IMG/VR virus record: IMGVR_UViG_3300017730_002072
Coordinates: 1 to 32,033 of that record
Origin: a virus
DNA: 32,033 bases
Reading direction: 5' to 3' (one strand)
Program-made: the position numbers and the translations under genes
Part shown: one piece after another, positions 2,529 through 28,869 of the stretch
Layout: each line of letters starts with the position of its first letter
Position numbering within the stretch: position 1 is the first letter of the stretch
The notes under the pieces: generated by a model
Database searches by the model: none
Told to the model about the DNA's origin: nothing
The model's input: the letters and a program-made list of their open reading frames with translations, nothing else

Positions 2529-3080
2529 ATGAATAAAAATATAGGATTTATATTATCAGTTATATTTGGTGTTGTATGTTTCAGTGCTGGAACATATTAC
2601 AGTTGGATTAAAATAGAAGATAGGTATGTAGAATATACTAAGAAGTGGGATAAGATAAACTCGGATGTTGAACAATTTGTAGAAGTTTCAAACCCAAAGA
2701 CGATTCAATTTTATGTCGCAGAACTAAGAAAGATTCTTGATGACATGACAAGGTTGAGTAAGATAATTGAGAAGGGACAAGAGATTGATGAAGCTATCGA
2801 TAAAATACTTGAAGGTATAGTACAACTTGAAAGTCAATGGGATATTACACTTAGTAATGATATTAAGATGAAAGAAACTATTGAGGTTGTAAATGACCAC
2901 ATTAAGGATGTTGATATTCGTGCTAAATCTCAGATACAAAATGTTATTGATAATGAAATCAAAGATATCGATACAAGAATAGATAAACAATTCGAACAGA
3001 TTAGTAAAGACTTAAAGGAAATAAAAGATATTATTAATCAAATTGAAAATTCTAAAGTTGGTAAAAAAATATTTAAATGA
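2529..3080 (+). CDS. Membrane-anchored coiled-coil protein
   Basis: A 183-residue protein with an AGGAG site. Residues 5-25 form one membrane helix (IGFILSVIFGVVCFSAGTYYSW). The rest is a long charged coiled coil with repeating I/L spacing (for example DEAIDKILEGIVQLESQ and IDKQFEQISKDLKEIKDII). The layout suggests a type II membrane protein with a helical rod outside or inside the inner membrane. It overlaps the next gene by ATGA. Function unknown. Confidence 0.6.
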   Translation: MNKNIGFILSVIFGVVCFSAGTYYSWIKIEDRYVEYTKKWDKINSDVEQFVEVSNPKTIQFYVAELRKILDDMTRLSKIIEKGQEIDEAIDKILEGIVQLESQWDITLSNDIKMKETIEVVNDHIKDVDIRAKSQIQNVIDNEIKDIDTRIDKQFEQISKDLKEIKDIINQIENSKVGKKIFK

Positions 3081-3313
3081 AAGATGATGTAATATATAAT
3101 AAACACGATAATCAGGTTATGGTAAAAACTGATGGTGATTTAATTTATATCATATGTCATAGAGAAGAACAACAAGATAATGTGGTCAAGAGAATGACTA
3201 CTGATAATTGTCTTTTAGAATCTTACGAAGAATGGGATGAGGATGATGATAAGAAATGGATACTAACATTCAGAGTATTAGACAACTATGAAGTTACACC
3301 AAATTTAAATTAG
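3077..3313 (+). CDS. Small acidic protein, unknown
   Basis: A 78-residue protein overlapping the upstream stop as ATGA. The sequence alternates strand-like segments (VMVKTDGDLIYIICH, KKWILTFRVLDNYEV) with an acidic loop (EEWDEDDDK), suggesting a small beta-rich fold. It lies just upstream of the selenoprotein candidate, separated by nine bases carrying that gene's ribosome binding site. Confidence 0.55.
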   Translation: MKDDVIYNKHDNQVMVKTDGDLIYIICHREEQQDNVVKRMTTDNCLLESYEEWDEDDDKKWILTFRVLDNYEVTPNLN

Positions 3314-3322
3314 GAGATTAGA

Positions 3323-3586
3323 ATGAAAATAACAATTGAATATTGTATGCAATGAAACTACGAACCAAGAGCTCTCAGTTTGAGAGATGATTTAATGGAT
3401 GAGTTTCTTACTGATTTTGATTCGTTTGAAATAAACTTAGTCGAATCAAGTGATGGTGTATTTGAAGTAATGGTTAATGATCATCTACAAGTATTTTCAA
3501 AGAAACAATTAAATAGATTTCCTAATAGTTCATATGAGATTATAAAGACTATTAAAGATGCTATAGATGAGAGGAGATTAGGTTAG
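3323..3586 (+). CDS. SelW/Rdx-family protein with in-frame TGA (candidate selenoprotein)
   Basis: ATG 3323 follows a TTAGGAGATTAGA ribosome binding site. Ten codons later an in-frame TGA (3353-3355) is read through to a TAG stop at 3584-3586, giving 87 residues. Without the TGA codon the sequence is a clear Rdx (SelW/SelT/SelH) thioredoxin-like protein: KITIEYCMQ-(TGA)-NYEPRAL, then a helix, then GVFEVMV, and a late FSKKQLNRFP. The TGA falls at the second redox position of the CxxC/CxxU motif (Cys8, residue 11), where SelW carries selenocysteine. A SECIS-like hairpin follows. Known SelW proteins are small redox proteins. The alternative is a Cys-to-stop mutation, but the downstream 76 codons remain intact and family-like. 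The phage would need host SelA, SelB and tRNA-Sec; none is in the window. Confidence 0.85.
3372..3386 (+). promoter_or_regulatory. Bacterial SECIS-like hairpin after the TGA
   Basis: CTCTCA GTT TGAGAG forms a perfect 6-bp stem with a 3-base loop, or a 5-bp stem with loop AGTTT. The loop G at 3378 lies 22 bases after the TGA. Predicted bacterial SECIS elements sit roughly 16-37 bases past the UGA, with a G among the first bases of a short apical loop, and bind SelB. Position, stem and loop G all fit. The stem is inside the coding sequence, as expected for bacteria. Confidence 0.6.
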
Positions 3587-6822: not shown

Positions 6823-7296
6823 ATGACTAAAGTTCTATTTAAGCACAATCTTCCCTTTTTCGATAGGGATGACTTTTTAACACCATTCGATAAAATGTTT
6901 GACAATCTCGTGGAAACACAATTTCCAGAAGTTGTAAAACAAGTTGGAGTGAAACCATATCAAGGTTCAGCTTATCCAAAGGTTAATGTATATGAATACG
7001 ATGACAAGATTGGAATAGTAGCCGAGATACCTGGTTTGAATAAGAAACAACTTCAAGTAGATGTTGAAGAAGGTATATTAACTATCTCAGGTGATAAACA
7101 TAACACCTTTGAAGATGATGGAGCAAAAGTACTCCGTAAAGAGTTAAAACAATCTTCATTCAAGAGGTCTTTCGAATTAGGTGAACAATTAGATGGAGAT
7201 GATATCTCAGCTAATTTTAAAGATGGAGTTTTATCGGTAACTATTCCCAAGAAGGAACCAGTAATACCGAAGAAACATTCTGTAAAAATCTCGTAA
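6823..7296 (+). CDS. Small heat shock protein, Hsp20 family
   Basis: A 157-residue protein with a ribosome binding site AAAGGAGAACAATA. Residues 48-150 form the alpha-crystallin domain (YPKVNVYEYDDKIGIVAEIPG, then LTISGDKH, then FKDGVLSVTIPKK with the hallmark GVL). The N-terminal arm (FFDRDDFLTPFDKMFDNL) matches the aromatic-rich region used for substrate binding and oligomerisation. Such ATP-independent chaperones hold unfolding proteins and are a known accessory gene of T4-like marine phages. A strong terminator follows. Confidence 0.95.
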   Translation: MTKVLFKHNLPFFDRDDFLTPFDKMFDNLVETQFPEVVKQVGVKPYQGSAYPKVNVYEYDDKIGIVAEIPGLNKKQLQVDVEEGILTISGDKHNTFEDDGAKVLRKELKQSSFKRSFELGEQLDGDDISANFKDGVLSVTIPKKEPVIPKKHSVKIS

Positions 7297-9824: not shown

Positions 9825-9924
9825 GTGAATTATAGCAATAAAGTTATGTATTCCAAAGGTTATTTAAATACTTATCAATGGAGATTTTCTTCATTAAACA
9901 TTTCACATACAATAAAACCAGCGG

Positions 9925-9958
9925 ACAGGCAGCTGACACACCTGTGAAAAAATGTGTC
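9925..9958 (+). promoter_or_regulatory. Predicted H-type pseudoknot upstream of the TonB receptor
   Basis: P1 ACAGG (9925-9929) pairs with CCTGT (9941-9945). P2 GACACA (9935-9940) pairs with TGTGTC (9953-9958). Loop 1 is CAGCT, no base separates the P2 5' strand from the P1 3' strand, and loop 3 is the A-rich GAAAAAA. This is textbook H-type geometry with an A-rich minor-groove strand, as in compact riboswitches such as preQ1-I and SAM-II. The ribosome binding site (AGAGGAGA, about 9969) is ten bases downstream. A ligand cannot be assigned. Confidence 0.55.
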
Positions 9959-9982
9959 TTAACCAAAAAGAGGAGAACGTTA

Positions 9983-12796
9983 ATGAATATACGTAATCTA
10001 ACAATATCATTATTGATGACAACAGGATTGTTTGCACAAACTATCGTTGGGGTTGTTAATGGTGGTAGTGAACCATTGGTTGGAGCAAATGTTGCTGTTG
10101 TAGGAACTGATAAAGGTGGTGTAACAGATGAATCTGGTAAATACACTATCGATGTCGGAGCTGAAGGCACATACACATTAACTGCTTCATTCATTGGATA
10201 TTCACCTTTAACATTGGATGTTAAGGTGGGTGATATAGTTGGAACACTCAACTTCGATTTAGAAGAAGATGTTTTAGCTATGACAGCACTTGAGGTCTTG
10301 GCTTCAAGAGCTGATGAAAAGACACCTGTTGCATACACTAATGTGGTAAAAGAAGAATTGGAATTTCGTCTTGGTAGTCAAGATGTTCCAATGGCTTTGA
10401 ATACTACACCAAGTGTTTATGCAACTCAACAAGGTGGTGGTGCGGGTGATGCTCGTATCAATGTTCGTGGGTTCAACCAACGAAATGTAGCCGTAATGAT
10501 AAATGGTGTTCCCCAAAATGATATGGAGAACGGATGGGTTTATTGGTCTAATTGGGATGGAGTTGCAGATGCAGCACAATCAATTCAGATGCAAAGAGGT
10601 CTATCAGCTGTTAATCTAGCTACACCTTCAATCGGTGGAACTATGAACATTATTACTGATCCTGCTCAACACGAGAAGGGCGGTAAGTTCAAACAAGAAA
10701 CAGGCGCAGGTGGTTTTCTAAAAACTACTCTTAATTACAATAGTGGTTTGATTGGAGAAAAACTCGCGTTAAGTGGTACAATAGTACGAAAAACAGGTGA
10801 TGGACTCATCGACAAAACATGGACAGACGCTTGGGCATATTATTTTGGTGCGAGTTATCAAGCTAATAAAGATAACCGATTTGAATTATACGCTATCGGA
10901 GCTCCACAACGCCATGGTCAAAATCTATACAAACAGAATATCGGTGCTTATGACGCTGAATTTGCTGCGAGTATAGATGGATATGATGAAACAGCACTTG
11001 GAGAAGATGGTTCGTTCAAAGATGTTGGTCGATTCTTTAATCAGAATTGGTCACCTATTAGTTCAGACTATAAAGGAAAGCAATATTGGTATATGTATGG
11101 TGATAAAACATCGGACAGATACAATCCTAACTTCCTAAATGAAAGAGAAAACTTCTTTCATAAACCATTGGTTAATCTTAACCATTTCCTAAATATAAAT
11201 GAAAAACTTCGTCTTTCATCTGTAGCTTATTGGAGTGGTGGATCTGGTGGTGGTACTGGTACTTATGGTAGGATTCCAACTCTCGACGCCGATGGTGTTT
11301 TAGGGGGAGAAGATTATAAGTTTTATTATGGTCGTTCTCCTTGGACAAGAGATTGGAATACATTGGTTGCATACAACTCAGGTGACGCAGACACAGTTTA
11401 TGTTGATAAGAGAGTTCTACCAAGAACTCATGGTGATGGTAATAATCAATCAGTAGGTATTCTTCGTAACTCTATTAATCGTCAAAATACTCTCGGTTTA
11501 ATCTCCAAATTAAACTACGAAGTTAATGATGATTTAGAGGTTCAAGTTGGTATTGATTGGAGAACTGCTAAAATCGAACACGCTCGTGAAGTTCGTGATT
11601 TGATGGGTGGTGATTACTATATGGATTACGCAGATGATAACTACGCAGATGGTAAAAGAGTTGGTTTAGGTGATATCATTGCATACCACAATCATACTAC
11701 GGTTGATTGGTTAGGTGGATTTGTTCAAGGTAATTATACTTTGGATAATTTAAACCTTTATGGTATGGGTGGTGTATCTAACATCAAGTATACTTATCAA
11801 GATCATTTTACGGTTGAGAACGAGTTAATTGAAGCACCATCAATCACAACAATTCAAGCAAAAGGTGGAGCAGTTTACGATATAGATGATAATGTTAGTG
11901 TATTTGCTAACGCTGGATATGTCGAAAAACCACCTATTATGGATAATGTGATTTACTTTGATGGTACGGTTGCACCAGATCCTGCTAATGAGAAATTCAT
12001 TAGTTCAGAAGCTGGTGTTAATTTCAAATCTGATAAATTTGCTGTTAAGGCAAATGTATACAATACAGATTGGAAAGACCGAAACCTTACTAAATCCGTA
12101 ACCACAGGACAAGGTGATTCAGGTGATACTGATGTTATCTTCCTTAGTGGTATCCATCAAAAACATCAAGGACTTGAGATAGAAGCTTCTTCACAAGTTC
12201 ATTCAATGTTTAGGATAGACGCGGCACTTAGTTTTGGTAAATGGCAGTTCAATGGAGATGCTAGTGGTAATTATCAAGAAAACGAATATGATGAACAAGG
12301 TAATGTAAGTGGTTTGAAAACAACCAAATACAATTACGCACTTGATGGATTATTCGTAGGTGATATGCCTCAAACTTCATATGTCTTGGGTGGAACTCTA
12401 ACTCCTGTTAAAGGACTTAGTATTCAAGCACTCTACAATATCTATGATGATAATTATAGTGATTGGAGTCCTGATTCTCGTGAGTATGATGTTGACGCAA
12501 CAGACGATGATGGTAATTCAGTAGATGACGCAGATAGAGAACAAGTATGGATGGCACCTGGATATCAAAAAGTTGATATTCACGCTTCATATAAACTACC
12601 AACCGATTGGACTGGTGGATATGATGTGTCGTTGTCAGCACATTTGTTTAACGCTTTAGATGCTGTATTTGTACAAGATGCAGTAGATCACAGCCAATAC
12701 AATAGTTATGGTGACAAAGTTCACGCAGCACACAACGCCGAAGTATTTCTTGGAACACCAAGATACTTTAACTTAGGATTGTCTGTTAATTTCTAA
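9983..12796 (+). CDS. TonB-dependent outer-membrane receptor
   Basis: A 937-residue protein from ATG 9983, which has an AGAGGAGA site; an upstream in-frame ATG at 9878 would add 35 non-signal residues across the leader structure. Signal peptide 1-18 (ISLLMTTGLFAQ). Residues 19-95 form a carboxypeptidase-regulatory-like beta domain (PLVGANVAVVGTDKGGVTDESG). A plug domain follows (about 115-225; INVRGFNQRNVAVMINGVPQ, then GGTMNIIT). A 22-strand-type barrel runs to a terminal aromatic (LSVNF). Such receptors import siderophores, cobalamin or glycans using TonB energy. The length is typical and the frame intact. The domain order is typical of FCB bacteria. A full receptor in a phage is unusual; a TonB C-terminal protein lies at 30218. 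The substrate is unknown. Confidence 0.93.
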   Translation: MNIRNLTISLLMTTGLFAQTIVGVVNGGSEPLVGANVAVVGTDKGGVTDESGKYTIDVGAEGTYTLTASFIGYSPLTLDVKVGDIVGTLNFDLEEDVLAMTALEVLASRADEKTPVAYTNVVKEELEFRLGSQDVPMALNTTPSVYATQQGGGAGDARINVRGFNQRNVAVMINGVPQNDMENGWVYWSNWDGVADAAQSIQMQRGLSAVNLATPSIGGTMNIITDPAQHEKGGKFKQETGAGGFLKTTLNYNSGLIGEKLALSGTIVRKTGDGLIDKTWTDAWAYYFGASYQANKDNRFELYAIGAPQRHGQNLYKQNIGAYDAEFAASIDGYDETALGEDGSFKDVGRFFNQNWSPISSDYKGKQYWYMYGDKTSDRYNPNFLNERENFFHKPLVNLNHFLNINEKLRLSSVAYWSGGSGGGTGTYGRIPTLDADGVLGGEDYKFYYGRSPWTRDWNTLVAYNSGDADTVYVDKRVLPRTHGDGNNQSVGILRNSINRQNTLGLISKLNYEVNDDLEVQVGIDWRTAKIEHAREVRDLMGGDYYMDYADDNYADGKRVGLGDIIAYHNHTTVDWLGGFVQGNYTLDNLNLYGMGGVSNIKYTYQDHFTVENELIEAPSITTIQAKGGAVYDIDDNVSVFANAGYVEKPPIMDNVIYFDGTVAPDPANEKFISSEAGVNFKSDKFAVKANVYNTDWKDRNLTKSVTTGQGDSGDTDVIFLSGIHQKHQGLEIEASSQVHSMFRIDAALSFGKWQFNGDASGNYQENEYDEQGNVSGLKTTKYNYALDGLFVGDMPQTSYVLGGTLTPVKGLSIQALYNIYDDNYSDWSPDSREYDVDATDDDGNSVDDADREQVWMAPGYQKVDIHASYKLPTDWTGGYDVSLSAHLFNALDAVFVQDAVDHSQYNSYGDKVHAAHNAEVFLGTPRYFNLGLSVNF

Positions 12797-18829: not shown

Positions 18830-18934
18830 ATGTATAATATATTTTTAATACTACTTATGTTACAATGGAACTCGTGTTCTCCGATACCTGAACCTACTTA
18901 CATTGATGATGTGAATATGGAGAATTATGCGTAA
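18830..18934 (+). CDS. 34-residue possible lipoprotein or lysis-type peptide
   Basis: N-terminal hydrophobic stretch (MYNIFLILLMLQWNSC) then a short acidic tail (PEPTYIDDVNMENYA). Cys16 could be lipidated, but the -3 to -1 residues (WNS) are a poor lipobox. It ends inside the peptide deformylase start (8-base overlap). AAGGAAATAA precedes the ATG. Confidence 0.45.
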   Translation: MYNIFLILLMLQWNSCSPIPEPTYIDDVNMENYA

Positions 18935-19577
18935 AGTAATTGATTGTTTTAAAGAAGATAATCCAGTAATAAATAAAAAACTAAGAGAGGTTTCAGTTGA
19001 AGAAGGAAACATTATTGCCACAGAATTATTTCAGATACTTAACGAAAGAAAAGACGGCATTGGGTTGGCAGCGAATCAAGTGGGAATTGATGCACAAGTG
19101 GCCGTTATCAATGTTATTGAACCTTTGGTTCTCATTAACCCAAAGATTGAAGAACAATGGGATGAAATTCCCTACTACGAAGGATGTTTGAGTTTTCCAA
19201 AACAAGGTATTCATACTAAAAGATATAGGAATATTGTTATCAAAACCGAACAGGCAGAAAGTGGTTGGTACTTTAGTGGGGCAGAAACTACACAAGAGGC
19301 TAAAGGTAGTTGGGAACAAGACAATAAAGAACAGGATCAAGAACAAAGATTATTAGAAGCTATATGTGTTCAACACGAGATAGACCATTTAAATGGAATA
19401 ACTATACACGATAGAGAAGATAAACCAAAACCAATTATATCTAAAAAGGGATACGGAAGAAACGAAAGAGTTATGATTACCAATGGTAAAGAAACACAAG
19501 AATTAAAATACAAAAAAGCAAAACCACTTATAGATAGTGGAAAATGGGAAATCTACATAGGAGGCCCGATAACTTAA
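18927..19577 (+). CDS. def: Peptide deformylase with insertion and C-terminal extension
   Basis: A 216-residue protein. All three catalytic motifs are present: GIGLAANQVG (44-53), EGCLSFP (85-91, metal ligand Cys87) and QHEIDHLNG (149-157, His150, Glu151, His154). The enzyme removes the formyl group from new proteins. Phage deformylases are usually smaller. Here a polar Glu/Gln-rich insertion (about 107-142) lies between motifs 2 and 3, and a roughly 50-residue tail (ELKYKKAKPLIDSGKWEIY) follows motif 3. Marine phages are known to carry deformylase, perhaps to speed processing of photosystem or phage proteins. The start ATG overlaps the previous microgene. Confidence 0.92.
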   Translation: MRKVIDCFKEDNPVINKKLREVSVEEGNIIATELFQILNERKDGIGLAANQVGIDAQVAVINVIEPLVLINPKIEEQWDEIPYYEGCLSFPKQGIHTKRYRNIVIKTEQAESGWYFSGAETTQEAKGSWEQDNKEQDQEQRLLEAICVQHEIDHLNGITIHDREDKPKPIISKKGYGRNERVMITNGKETQELKYKKAKPLIDSGKWEIYIGGPIT

Positions 19578-20275: not shown

Positions 20276-20414
20276 AAAGATGGAGTTATTAAAAAAGGCT
20301 GAGAAAGTAAATTATGTATTTGAGAAGATGGATAAGGAAACACAAGACGCTGTAAAAAGTCTTATTAACCATATGATGGTAGAAAAAACTAAAAAGGATA
20401 ATCACATAGTTTGA
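20262..20414 (+). CDS. 50-residue helical protein
   Basis: ATG 20262 (GGAG seven bases upstream, 14-base overlap with the previous gene) is preferred to an in-frame ATG at 20148 lying inside that gene. Lys-rich and helical (KKMELLKKAEKVNYVFEKMD, then DAVKSLINHMMVEKTKKDN). Overlaps the next start as TTGA. Confidence 0.5.
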   Translation: MKKNKKMELLKKAEKVNYVFEKMDKETQDAVKSLINHMMVEKTKKDNHIV

Positions 20415-21595
20415 AAAAATATTTAACATATGATGATGTAAACATAGTTCCAAAGTACTCGGAGTTAAAATCTCGTGATGATGTAGATCTTACCACACGA
20501 TTTACCAAGAATAGAAAACTACACATCCCAATAGTAGCCTCACCGATGGATACCGTAACTGAAGAAGATATGGCCATAGAGATGATGGAAAGGGGTGCCG
20601 TAGGTGTTATACATAGATTTATGTCTATTAAAAAACAATCTCGTATGATGCAATCATTACATTATAAATGGGATAGTTTTTTTAATATAGGTGATGGTAA
20701 AGAAAGAAGTGCCGATAATGATTATGATGAGTGGTATAAGAAACTAAGTAATAAAAGTAAAATATCCAAATCAGATTGGGAGGATTTTAAAGATTACGGA
20801 ATGTTCACAGATGATATGGCAGAAACCGATAGGATGTGGAGAAACCTACCCTTATGTGCAGCAGTTGGTGTTACAGGAGATTATTTAGAAAGAGCGAAAG
20901 AATTGGTATTAAACGGATGTAATGTACTACTTATAGATGTAGCACACGGCCACCATAAAAATGTAGGAGACGCTATTGAAGAAATCAAGAGTAAAATATC
21001 AAACATCGAAGTCATTGCGGGAAACATTGCGACAAGAGATGGAGCAGAGTTTCTCTGTGAAAAAGGTGCTGACGGCATCAGAGTGGGAATCGGTAACGGC
21101 TCATTATGTGAAACAAGAATCAGGACTGGCGTTGGATTACCTCAGGTTAGTGTTCTTCTTGATGTGTATTCCGTTTGTGACGATTGGGATGTTCCTATTA
21201 TTGCTGATGGTGGTATTCGGAATGTGGGTGATGTGGCTAAAGGACTTGGTTGCGGAGCTGACACCATCATGGTTGGTTCGTTACTTTCGGGCACCAAAGA
21301 GAGTCCAGGTCAAATAGAAAAACAAGGTGAGTGGCCTAACGAAAAATTATTTAAAAAGTACAGAGGTTCTGCCTCAAGAGATTCAAAAGGAAACGATAAG
21401 AATGTTGAGGGAAATCATAAAGTGATTCCTTACAAGGGTAAAGTAAATAGAATACTTAGTGATATAGAAGATGGAATAAAAAGTTCGTGTTCCTATGTAG
21501 GGGCAAATAATCTTGCAGAATATAGATCTTTAGTAGAATTTGTAGAAGTAACAAATGCAGGTCAAGTAGAGGCTCGACCACATTTATTAAGTTAA
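20411..21595 (+). CDS. IMP dehydrogenase/GMP reductase family enzyme without CBS domains
   Basis: A 394-residue protein from TTG 20411 (TTGA overlap). TIM-barrel landmarks: LTYDDVNIVPKYS, PIVASPMDTVT (40-50), DVAHGHH (176-182), IAGNIAT, the catalytic loop GIGNGSLCETR (226-236, Cys233), IADGGIRNVGDVAK and the late IPYKG. IMPDH makes XMP from IMP; GMPR converts GMP to IMP. Usual IMPDHs have two CBS domains in the first barrel half; here an acidic insertion of roughly 65 residues (80-147) takes that place. The Arg-Tyr flap of IMPDH is not visible, and LSGTKESPG is IMPDH-like, so the direction of the reaction is uncertain. It would modify guanine nucleotide supply during infection. Confidence 0.85.
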   Translation: MKKYLTYDDVNIVPKYSELKSRDDVDLTTRFTKNRKLHIPIVASPMDTVTEEDMAIEMMERGAVGVIHRFMSIKKQSRMMQSLHYKWDSFFNIGDGKERSADNDYDEWYKKLSNKSKISKSDWEDFKDYGMFTDDMAETDRMWRNLPLCAAVGVTGDYLERAKELVLNGCNVLLIDVAHGHHKNVGDAIEEIKSKISNIEVIAGNIATRDGAEFLCEKGADGIRVGIGNGSLCETRIRTGVGLPQVSVLLDVYSVCDDWDVPIIADGGIRNVGDVAKGLGCGADTIMVGSLLSGTKESPGQIEKQGEWPNEKLFKKYRGSASRDSKGNDKNVEGNHKVIPYKGKVNRILSDIEDGIKSSCSYVGANNLAEYRSLVEFVEVTNAGQVEARPHLLS

Positions 21596-22820: not shown

Positions 22821-22982
22821 ATGGACATAACTAAGATTATTCAGACATTGAGTGAGGCATTAGATGATAAAGATTGGGATTTGGTAAAAGAATTGTTAGA
22901 AGAATTAATTTATGAAGATGATAATCCTATCCAAGAATACGAGAAGGATAAGGATGTGGATAATGAAAATTTATGGGGCTGA
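22821..22982 (+). CDS. 53-residue acidic protein
   Basis: ATG 22821 has a GGAG site about nine bases upstream; an in-frame ATG at 22812 would sit too close to that site. Acidic and helical (ITKIIQTLSEALDDKDWDLV, then KELLEELIYEDD). The last three codons overlap the first eight bases of the tmRNA gene. Function unknown. Confidence 0.5.
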   Translation: MDITKIIQTLSEALDDKDWDLVKELLEELIYEDDNPIQEYEKDKDVDNENLWG

Positions 22983-23389
22983 CTTGGAAATCGACTGGTG
23001 TTATTCGATACTAAAGTGCAGCAGAGTTTGAGTAGACTCTTAAATAAGACTCAACGAAACCTAAATGGCGATACATCGCTAGACGGGTTGGACATTGATT
23101 GGCATTTAGCTAATCTTGAAATGGGATTCGACAATTTTGTTGAACCTGTTCAAAATGACCAACCATCTTACGCCTACGCGGCATAAGTTACTGAGTTGTC
23201 TAACACTCGGTCATAAAATAAGTTAGACATCAACTCCTCATGTTATGAGTATAAAAGAACATACGGAGCTATCCAAAAAAATAGTCGGTGGTTTGTAGGT
23301 AACTTCTCGGAGGGTAGTAACCTAACTAAGCTGTAAATGACTTTGTAAAGAAGGCAAACAGGACGGGAGTTCGAATCTCCCCAGCTCCA
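22975..23389 (+). ncRNA. ssrA: tmRNA (transfer-messenger RNA)
   Basis: The 5' end GGGGCTG (22975-22981) pairs with 3' CAGCTCC (23382-23388, one G-U), discriminator A 23389. The 5' D-like stretch (ACTTGGAAATCGACTGG) and the T-arm GGGAG-TTCGAAT-CTCCC (23365-23381) complete the tRNA-like end. A pseudoknot at 23023-23054 (AGAGT/ACTCT and TTGAGT/ACTCAA) lies where PK1 is found in E. coli. The tag ORF ends at TAA 23184-23186 with the last ten residues NDQPSYAYAA, close to the standard YALAA end. An in-frame GCT at 23109 is a possible resume codon, giving a 25-residue tag. tmRNA frees stalled ribosomes with SmpB. Confidence 0.95.
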
Positions 23390-23409
23390 CAAAATTAGCA
23401 AGAAAGTAC

Positions 23410-27727: not shown

Positions 27728-28396
27728 ATGTTCGAAACTATAAAAAAACTCGTAAAATCTTTTATGAGAAAACTCAAGAGTACTAATGGTAATTCACTAG
27801 CTGAATTCGCTGTTACTACTGCAATGATGGCAACACTTGCTACAACAGCCGCACCAAAATTTGGACAAGTTGGAGCAGGAGCTAAAGAAAAGAAAACAAT
27901 GAATAACATTGACAAAATTCTTACAGTTGCTAATAACTTTTACAACCAAACATTGTCTGAAGAAGGTAAAGGAAGATTTCCTGGACAAGAGAAGTATGAT
28001 GTCGCTGTAGGTGGTGTCACTTTAGCTGAAGGAGCTTCTACTGATGAAACTCTTGAAGCTTATGTGGAAACAATACTTGACCAAAAAGTATCTTATACAT
28101 CAGAGTTAGGTGAGTTCGTTTATGTATTTTCACCAGCATCAGATGATGATGACGCATTACAAGGTGATTGGATGAGTTTAGAATCATCAGTTGGTTACGA
28201 TGGTAACGATGAAATTGGTGCTCTTGACTTCAAACAAGACTTTGGTAACAATGGTATGACAAGTCCATTTCAGGATGGTTCATACGCATATTTAGTAATA
28301 CCAGGAAGTGGTAGTGGTACATCCGCACAAGCTCCTGTTCTTGTAGTAATAGATACTGAGAATCCATCTAAACTACATAAAACTTTAGTACCTTAA
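27728..28396 (+). CDS. Type IV prepilin-like protein 1
   Basis: A 222-residue protein with AAAGGAGAACTGAA upstream. A charged 21-residue leader ends in Gly21, then NSLAEFAVTTAMMATLATTA with Glu at +5, fitting the prepilin peptidase site and the hydrophobic assembly helix. The +1 residue is Asn instead of the usual Phe or Met. The mature part is a large beta-rich domain (about 140 residues) with a glycine/serine-rich end. Prepilins are cut by PilD and assembled into pili or pseudopili; none of that machinery is in the window, so host assembly would be needed. Confidence 0.75.
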   Translation: MFETIKKLVKSFMRKLKSTNGNSLAEFAVTTAMMATLATTAAPKFGQVGAGAKEKKTMNNIDKILTVANNFYNQTLSEEGKGRFPGQEKYDVAVGGVTLAEGASTDETLEAYVETILDQKVSYTSELGEFVYVFSPASDDDDALQGDWMSLESSVGYDGNDEIGALDFKQDFGNNGMTSPFQDGSYAYLVIPGSGSGTSAQAPVLVVIDTENPSKLHKTLVP

Positions 28397-28428
28397 TCGA
28401 AAATAAAAAAACACCGAAAGGAAAAACA

Positions 28429-28869
28429 ATGAAGAACATATTAAAAAATACATCGAAAGGTTTCACATTGATTGAACTTGTAATGGTTACAATCATATTA
28501 GGAATCTTAGCAGCTGTAGCAATTCCAAGATATCAACAAACGGTTGATAACGCAGAAGCAACAGCAGAAAAGGCATTTGTAGATATGGTATGGGCAGGAG
28601 TAGAACAAGAAGCTTCTGAAAGACTAACAGATGATGGACTTGAAGCATGGCCTTACAATCCACTAACAGTTATTGGTAGAAGCCGTAACATATCAGTTAC
28701 TCTATTTGAAGGAGTACCTGATGAGGATAATGAATGGCAGTTTAGTGTAGATGCAGCTGGTGAACCAGCAATCTTTCATCATAGAAGAAATGACGAAATC
28801 TACTACTACAAATACGATTCATTGACATTTGAGTTAGACGAAGAACCTACACTTTACACAAACGAATAA
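28429..28869 (+). CDS. Type IV prepilin-like protein 2
   Basis: A 146-residue protein. Leader KNILKNTSKG, then FTLIELVMVTIILGILAAVAIPR: Gly11, Phe12 at +1 and Glu16 at +5 are the classical prepilin peptidase motif. The hydrophobic helix and the PRY turn are textbook. The mature head is acidic (YNPLTVIGRSRN, then FHHRRNDEIYYYKYD). It is likely co-transcribed with the first prepilin gene 32 bases upstream. It could be a major or minor pilin. A phage encoding two pilins may coat or replace the host pilus. Confidence 0.9.
   Translation: MKNILKNTSKGFTLIELVMVTIILGILAAVAIPRYQQTVDNAEATAEKAFVDMVWAGVEQEASERLTDDGLEAWPYNPLTVIGRSRNISVTLFEGVPDEDNEWQFSVDAAGEPAIFHHRRNDEIYYYKYDSLTFELDEEPTLYTNE

Follow-up and report, generated by a model that had tools for sequence, protein, structure and literature searches.

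The 32,033-base IMG/VR virus record IMGVR_UViG_3300017730_002072, analysed over its whole length and hereafter called the window, carries at positions 3323–3586 of its plus strand a frame that very likely encodes a phage selenoprotein of the SelW/Rdx family. The evidence from sequence covers the frame, its family, the conservation of an in-frame UGA, a covarying SECIS hairpin, a likely host that decodes selenocysteine (Sec), the phage origin of the gene and the purifying selection acting on it after the UGA, all of which are shown. Sec insertion itself is inferred, since data on expression, on the proteome or from selenium labelling are lacking.

The selW frame starts with ATG at 3323, terminates with TAG at 3584–3586 and contains, as its codon 11, a TGA at 3353–3355 (plus strand). 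Reading through this codon gives a product of 87 amino acids (MKITIEYCMQUNYEPRALSL...RRLG) with a CMQU motif, in which Sec11 follows Cys8 and occupies the second position of CxxU. A Shine–Dalgarno sequence, AGGAG (3312–3316, plus strand), lies 6 nt before the ATG. On the same strand, a 78-aa gene at 3077–3313 precedes selW and is conserved beside it in related phages (74% identity in L212/L213/L035), and the genes immediately upstream of selW are retained in the related phages L031/L035 (L213/L212). Standard gene calling reports only a 68-aa piece at 3380–3586. An initial annotation, made without database searches, had proposed the frame from ATG 3323 to TAG 3584 with an in-frame TGA at codon 11, had placed this TGA at the second redox position of a CxxC/CxxU motif with Cys8, and had assigned the product to the SelW/Rdx family. 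The first two claims held on direct inspection of the sequence and the third in a profile search of the read-through translation. Its statement that the truncated part begins with Met at 3380 failed, as the in-frame start at that position is TTG and not ATG; the first in-frame ATG downstream of the TGA is at 3395. The same TGA is found in two longer IMG/VR records from other metagenomes (40,176 and 49,196 bases), which are 99.95% identical to the window over the part fetched (about 8.6 kb). Because the codon is identical in these two further assemblies, a sequencing error is very unlikely.

The assignment to the SelW-like family rests on sequence profiles and on a structural model. The read-through product matches Pfam Rdx over residues 2–78 (E 8.8e-17, 61.5 bits for a cut-off of 22.6) and, among the NCBIfam models for SelT/W/H, TIGR02174 (55.2 bits for a cut-off of 34.2). 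Its score against NF041051 (SelTWH_Campy), 78.6 bits, is below the curated cut-off of 88; in other words, the protein is related to this equivalog but is not a member of it. The closest solved structures by sequence are SelW-related proteins, and both printed alignments have Cys at the aligned position. An AlphaFold2 model built from 12 phage sequences (mean pLDDT 93.8) is predicted to have the order strand–helix–three strands–helix (beta-alpha-beta-beta-beta-alpha), as expected for the thioredoxin-like fold of the family, in which CxxC/CxxU follows strand 1. Its top PDB matches are the SelW-related entries 2fa8, 2obk, 2oka and 3dex, with a TM-score of about 0.8. The BFVD library of viral structures contains no match to the model at E ≤ 0.001, an absence that possibly reflects the truncation of such genes at UGA during annotation, and a scan of PHROGs assigned no family to the phage protein.

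Conservation of the TGA was examined in IMG/VR by two routes. A strict pattern, EYCxxU(TGA)xYxxRA, retrieved 19 loci, 18 of which are clear SelW frames, and a relaxed TGA pattern added L031, L035 and the doubtful L041. Substituting TGT or TGC for TGA in this relaxed pattern produced 11 hits, none of them SelW-like and all rejected as chance matches; thus, with identical flanking residues, genuine SelW genes are among the TGA hits and only chance matches among the TGT/TGC hits. L007 and most of the hits to the relaxed pattern (L023–L030 and others) were likewise discarded as chance matches. Since pattern searches can bias the codon result, a scan independent of TGA was also run, based on a protein alignment whose patterns either specify Cys at this codon or are remote from it. 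It returned 27 homologues, of which one is cut off at the site by the end of its contig and was excluded from the codon count; the other 26 all have TGA and none has Cys. In total, the IMG/VR searches yielded about 20 distinct phage SelW proteins. The YC motif preceding the TGA is invariant in alignment A2. Downstream of the TGA, the dN/dS pairs in the closest group are 0.30/0.96, 0.30/0.73 and 0.09/1.07; with dN below dS, the part of phage selW located 3′ of the UGA is under purifying selection, a conclusion drawn from sequence alone. Outside IMG/VR, tblastn of the INPHARED phage set with three forms of SelW gave no convincing homologue, and a single-protein scan of genome contigs with the phage SelW query found nothing.

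The UGA is followed by a hairpin of the bacterial SECIS type. Its apical part (3372–3386, plus strand) consists of a 6-bp stem, CUCUCA/UGAGAG, closed by the loop GUU at 3378–3380, 22 nt after the UGA. An extended SECIS-like hairpin that starts at the UGA (3354–3407, plus strand) is predicted in a 60-nt fold, but its lower stem is a single-sequence prediction without covariation support. Evidence for the apical element comes from an alignment of 31 distinct phage and Marinimicrobia SelW sequences, L041 included, in which 94.1% of the hairpin cells are paired (29.6–51.6% in slid controls) and 54 cells have changed on both sides of the stem in a compensatory manner. The covariation score is 0.762, compared with 0.189 for shuffled and at most 0.289 for slid versions. 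In 31/31 sequences G is the first loop base, with the same spacing of 22 nt. As the hairpin lies within coding sequence, synonymous codons were redrawn to provide the null expectation: all five inner pairs are present in 28 of the 31 real genes against 1.8 expected, and one of the five is missing in the remaining three. The sequences are related and hence do not amount to 31 independent trials. Conservation of the hairpin nevertheless exceeds what the protein sequence explains, which is again shown from sequence alone. Published constraints on bSECIS elements require a loop of 3–9 nt, an upper stem of 4–16 bp, a distance of 16–37 nt from the UGA, a G in the first two loop positions and a minimum free energy ≤ −7.5 kcal/mol (PMC13188914). 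The loop, stem, G and spacing all comply without qualification; the energy depends on the length folded, at −6.5 kcal/mol for 48 nt and −11.6 kcal/mol for 60 nt. Energy alone is uninformative here, the single-sequence fold of the 48-nt element being no more stable than its shuffles (z −0.73). When 225 kb of phage sequence was scanned with a covariance model of the SECIS, no further selenoprotein emerged, although the variability of SECIS elements means that one is not excluded.

The carrier of selW is a T4-like phage. Beyond the window, the near-identical 49-kb contig goes on to encode T4-type baseplate wedge proteins, and SelW contigs of 216, 132 and 131 kb have genes of the Gp23 family of T4 capsid proteins. 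The 40-kb contig contributes, upstream, genes for a dUTPase and a DNA methyltransferase. A tmRNA gene (22975–23392; Rfam 81.6 bits) is also present in the phage genome.

The host is likely to belong to Marinimicrobia (SAR406), an inference based on one shared gene and on host-like signal peptides, in the absence of infection data. The shared gene encodes a TonB-dependent receptor (9878–12796), complete with carboxypeptidase-regulatory and plug domains, which is mostly 55–70% identical to genes of about 50 genomes, nearly all from Neomarinimicrobiota (Marinimicrobia, SAR406); it is this resemblance that points to the phylum. The receptor is found on 7 of 20 SelW phage contigs, including the 216-kb contig with Gp23, and its more distant copies are 70–74% identical. 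Among 22 Marinimicrobia genomes, selA and selB each score above cut-off in 20 and tRNA-Sec in 18, with anticodon UCA in the three tRNAs checked. SelW is present in 18 of the 22, and all 18 genes have a single in-frame TGA at the same place together with the hairpin. The phage contigs yielded no tRNA-Sec, which leaves decoding dependent on host machinery; most of the contigs are fragments, however, and this absence is not final. Several tRNA-Sec-like hits in phage contigs were rejected as other tRNAs (Tyr, Cys, Ala, Gly).

These data bear on the remaining claims of the initial annotation. Its view that a random stop was unlikely held, and a chance TGA is excluded since the codon stands at the aligned position in 26/26 readable phage and 18/18 bacterial homologues. 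Of the checks that it had put forward, comparison of TGA with TGT/TGC in homologues showed TGA kept throughout and no Cys among those of phages, and the search for Sec machinery located selA, selB and tRNA-Sec in the likely host phylum. It had named three outcomes that would refute a phage selenoprotein (TGT or TGC at codon 11 in raw reads, homologues without Cys or Sec at the site, and a host without Sec machinery); those that could be tested all favoured the proposal, which is supported. The SECIS hairpin, present and covarying, had gone unmentioned.

In the mechanism proposed, the phage mRNA would present a bacterial SECIS hairpin directly after the UGA at 3353–3355. In an infected Marinimicrobia cell, host SelA would make Sec-tRNA(Sec), and host SelB together with this tRNA would insert selenocysteine at the UGA. 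The product would be a protein of 87 amino acids that adopts a thioredoxin fold and has its redox centre at CxxU. Little is known about what SelW does in bacteria. The most likely role of the phage protein is that of a selenol/thiol oxidoreductase that supplements host SelW and shields or resets thiols while infection proceeds; this role is inferred, and the case for it is no stronger than the case against. If phage thioredoxins and glutaredoxins are a guide, the benefit would probably be that thiols are kept reduced, that peroxides are kept low, or that host SelW is replaced after host shut-off. A bolder reading, towards which the evidence does not quite tip, is that a lineage of marine T4-like phages depends on Sec decoding by its hosts and has retained the Sec of SelW, never exchanging it for Cys, over a long period of divergence. 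If true, infection would be tied to the selenium status of the host, and Sec-decoding hosts such as Marinimicrobia would be favoured.

Four rival explanations were considered. The first concerns purpose only and, as regards decoding, overlaps the preferred one: the selenoprotein would be mainly regulatory, its UGA sensing host selenium and the choice between termination and read-through tuning this gene or those that follow. In its favour, Cys never replaces Sec in the phage homologues found, though bacterial Cys forms exist. Against it, fold and active site are conserved intact, which a pure switch would not need. A mainly regulatory purpose is thus considered unlikely, while some selenium-sensing role of the UGA remains possible. 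In the second, the TGA is an ordinary stop: either the gene is a host-derived selW in decay, or translation restarts at TTG 3380 or ATG 3395 and produces a short protein lacking the redox motif. Standard gene calling, which yields only the 68-aa piece, agrees with this. It is nonetheless very unlikely in view of the TGA that about 20 distinct phage proteins share at this codon, the dN/dS of about 0.1–0.4 after it, the invariant YC motif ahead of it and the covarying SECIS. In the third, a suppressor tRNA, or a genetic code that differs in the phage or its host, leads to UGA being read as Trp or Cys. Recoding of stop codons is known from some phages, but TGA functions as a stop in the window, where it ends 4 of the 17 long ORFs; the sole tRNA gene there is a tRNA-Cys with anticodon GCA; the TGA falls exactly at the Sec/Cys site of the family and is accompanied by a SECIS; and the host genomes encode a tRNA-Sec with anticodon UCA. 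This possibility is all but ruled out. The fourth, that the contig is misfiled Marinimicrobia DNA and the gene the host's own selW, could invoke the host-like TonB receptor, IMPDH, peptide deformylase and tmRNA, but can be practically discarded given the T4-type baseplate wedge genes on the near-identical contig, Gp23 on the related 131–216 kb SelW contigs and the separation of the phage SelW clade from sampled host SelW.

This separation was obtained in a maximum-likelihood tree, where the phage SelW proteins group together and separately from the 18 of Marinimicrobia (support 99/96). Because the protein is short and phyla other than Marinimicrobia were left out, the donor of phage selW remains open.

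The phage selenoprotein shares its fold, CxxU motif, UGA position and in-frame bSECIS with bacterial SelW-like selenoproteins (PF10262/TIGR02174; NF041051 in epsilonproteobacteria), and differs from them by its location on T4-like phages, its clade apart from sampled Marinimicrobia genes and its YxPRALSLRxEL signature. SelW-like proteins are the commonest selenoprotein family in marine metagenomes, with 427 Sec versus 56 Cys forms (PMC2398784). Among viruses, according to a 2019 review, two poxvirus glutathione peroxidases are the only proven selenoproteins (PMC6769590). These enzymes (GPx1-like in molluscum contagiosum, GPx4-like in fowlpox) are likewise host-derived and host-decoded, but they belong to eukaryotic viruses, to another enzyme family and to another SECIS type. 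Phages have also been linked to Sec decoding by tRNA-Sec genes, in Basilisk-like Bacillus phages (PMC6145125) and huge wastewater phages (PMC10747093); in those cases a tRNA is present and no selenoprotein gene is named in the relevant sections, the reverse of the SelW contigs. T4 NrdC and other thioredoxins and glutaredoxins of phages are small thioredoxin-fold proteins of thiol redox chemistry; they are Cys-based and belong to other families. A survey of marine trace elements reported that, apart from RNR II, plastocyanin and Cu-Zn SOD, the protein families it covered, those of selenoproteins included, had few or no viral sequences (PMC9402790). No earlier report of a phage-encoded selenoprotein was found in the literature searched, from which most subscription papers and bioRxiv preprints were missing. 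Such a protein therefore appears to be new, although priority is not certain and both the protein family and the SECIS type were already known. A conserved phage selenoprotein implies that gene callers have been truncating such genes at UGA and that a phage need not bring its own tRNA-Sec to exploit the selenium machinery of its host. The availability of selenium may matter for infection of SAR406, a phylum that is abundant in the ocean and uncultured, and the phage SelW set offers an independent, evolutionary means of testing the rules for bacterial SECIS elements.

A few additional features deserve mention. L041 (7671–7718, minus strand) is a strongly divergent SelW-like TGA frame whose C-terminal half is unlike SelW; its hairpin stem is perfect but wholly different (AGAAA-GUC-UUUCU), and its contig has a partial Gp23 match. 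It is considered a possible member and is not relied on, while still contributing one sequence to the 31-member SECIS alignment. Five phage SelW frames (L005, L006, L011, L015 and L021) have no ATG ahead of the CxxU motif. An outer-membrane receptor kept by a phage is unusual, and the TonB receptor could conceivably serve uptake or the exclusion of competing phages. Host-type genes for peptide deformylase, IMP dehydrogenase/GMP reductase, Hsp20 and an IscA-like iron–sulphur protein are located in the window at 18927–19577, 20411–21595, 6823–7296 and 647–1033. Finally, two pilin-like genes span 27728–28869, the second of which (28429–28869) contains a type IV pilin N-methylation motif.
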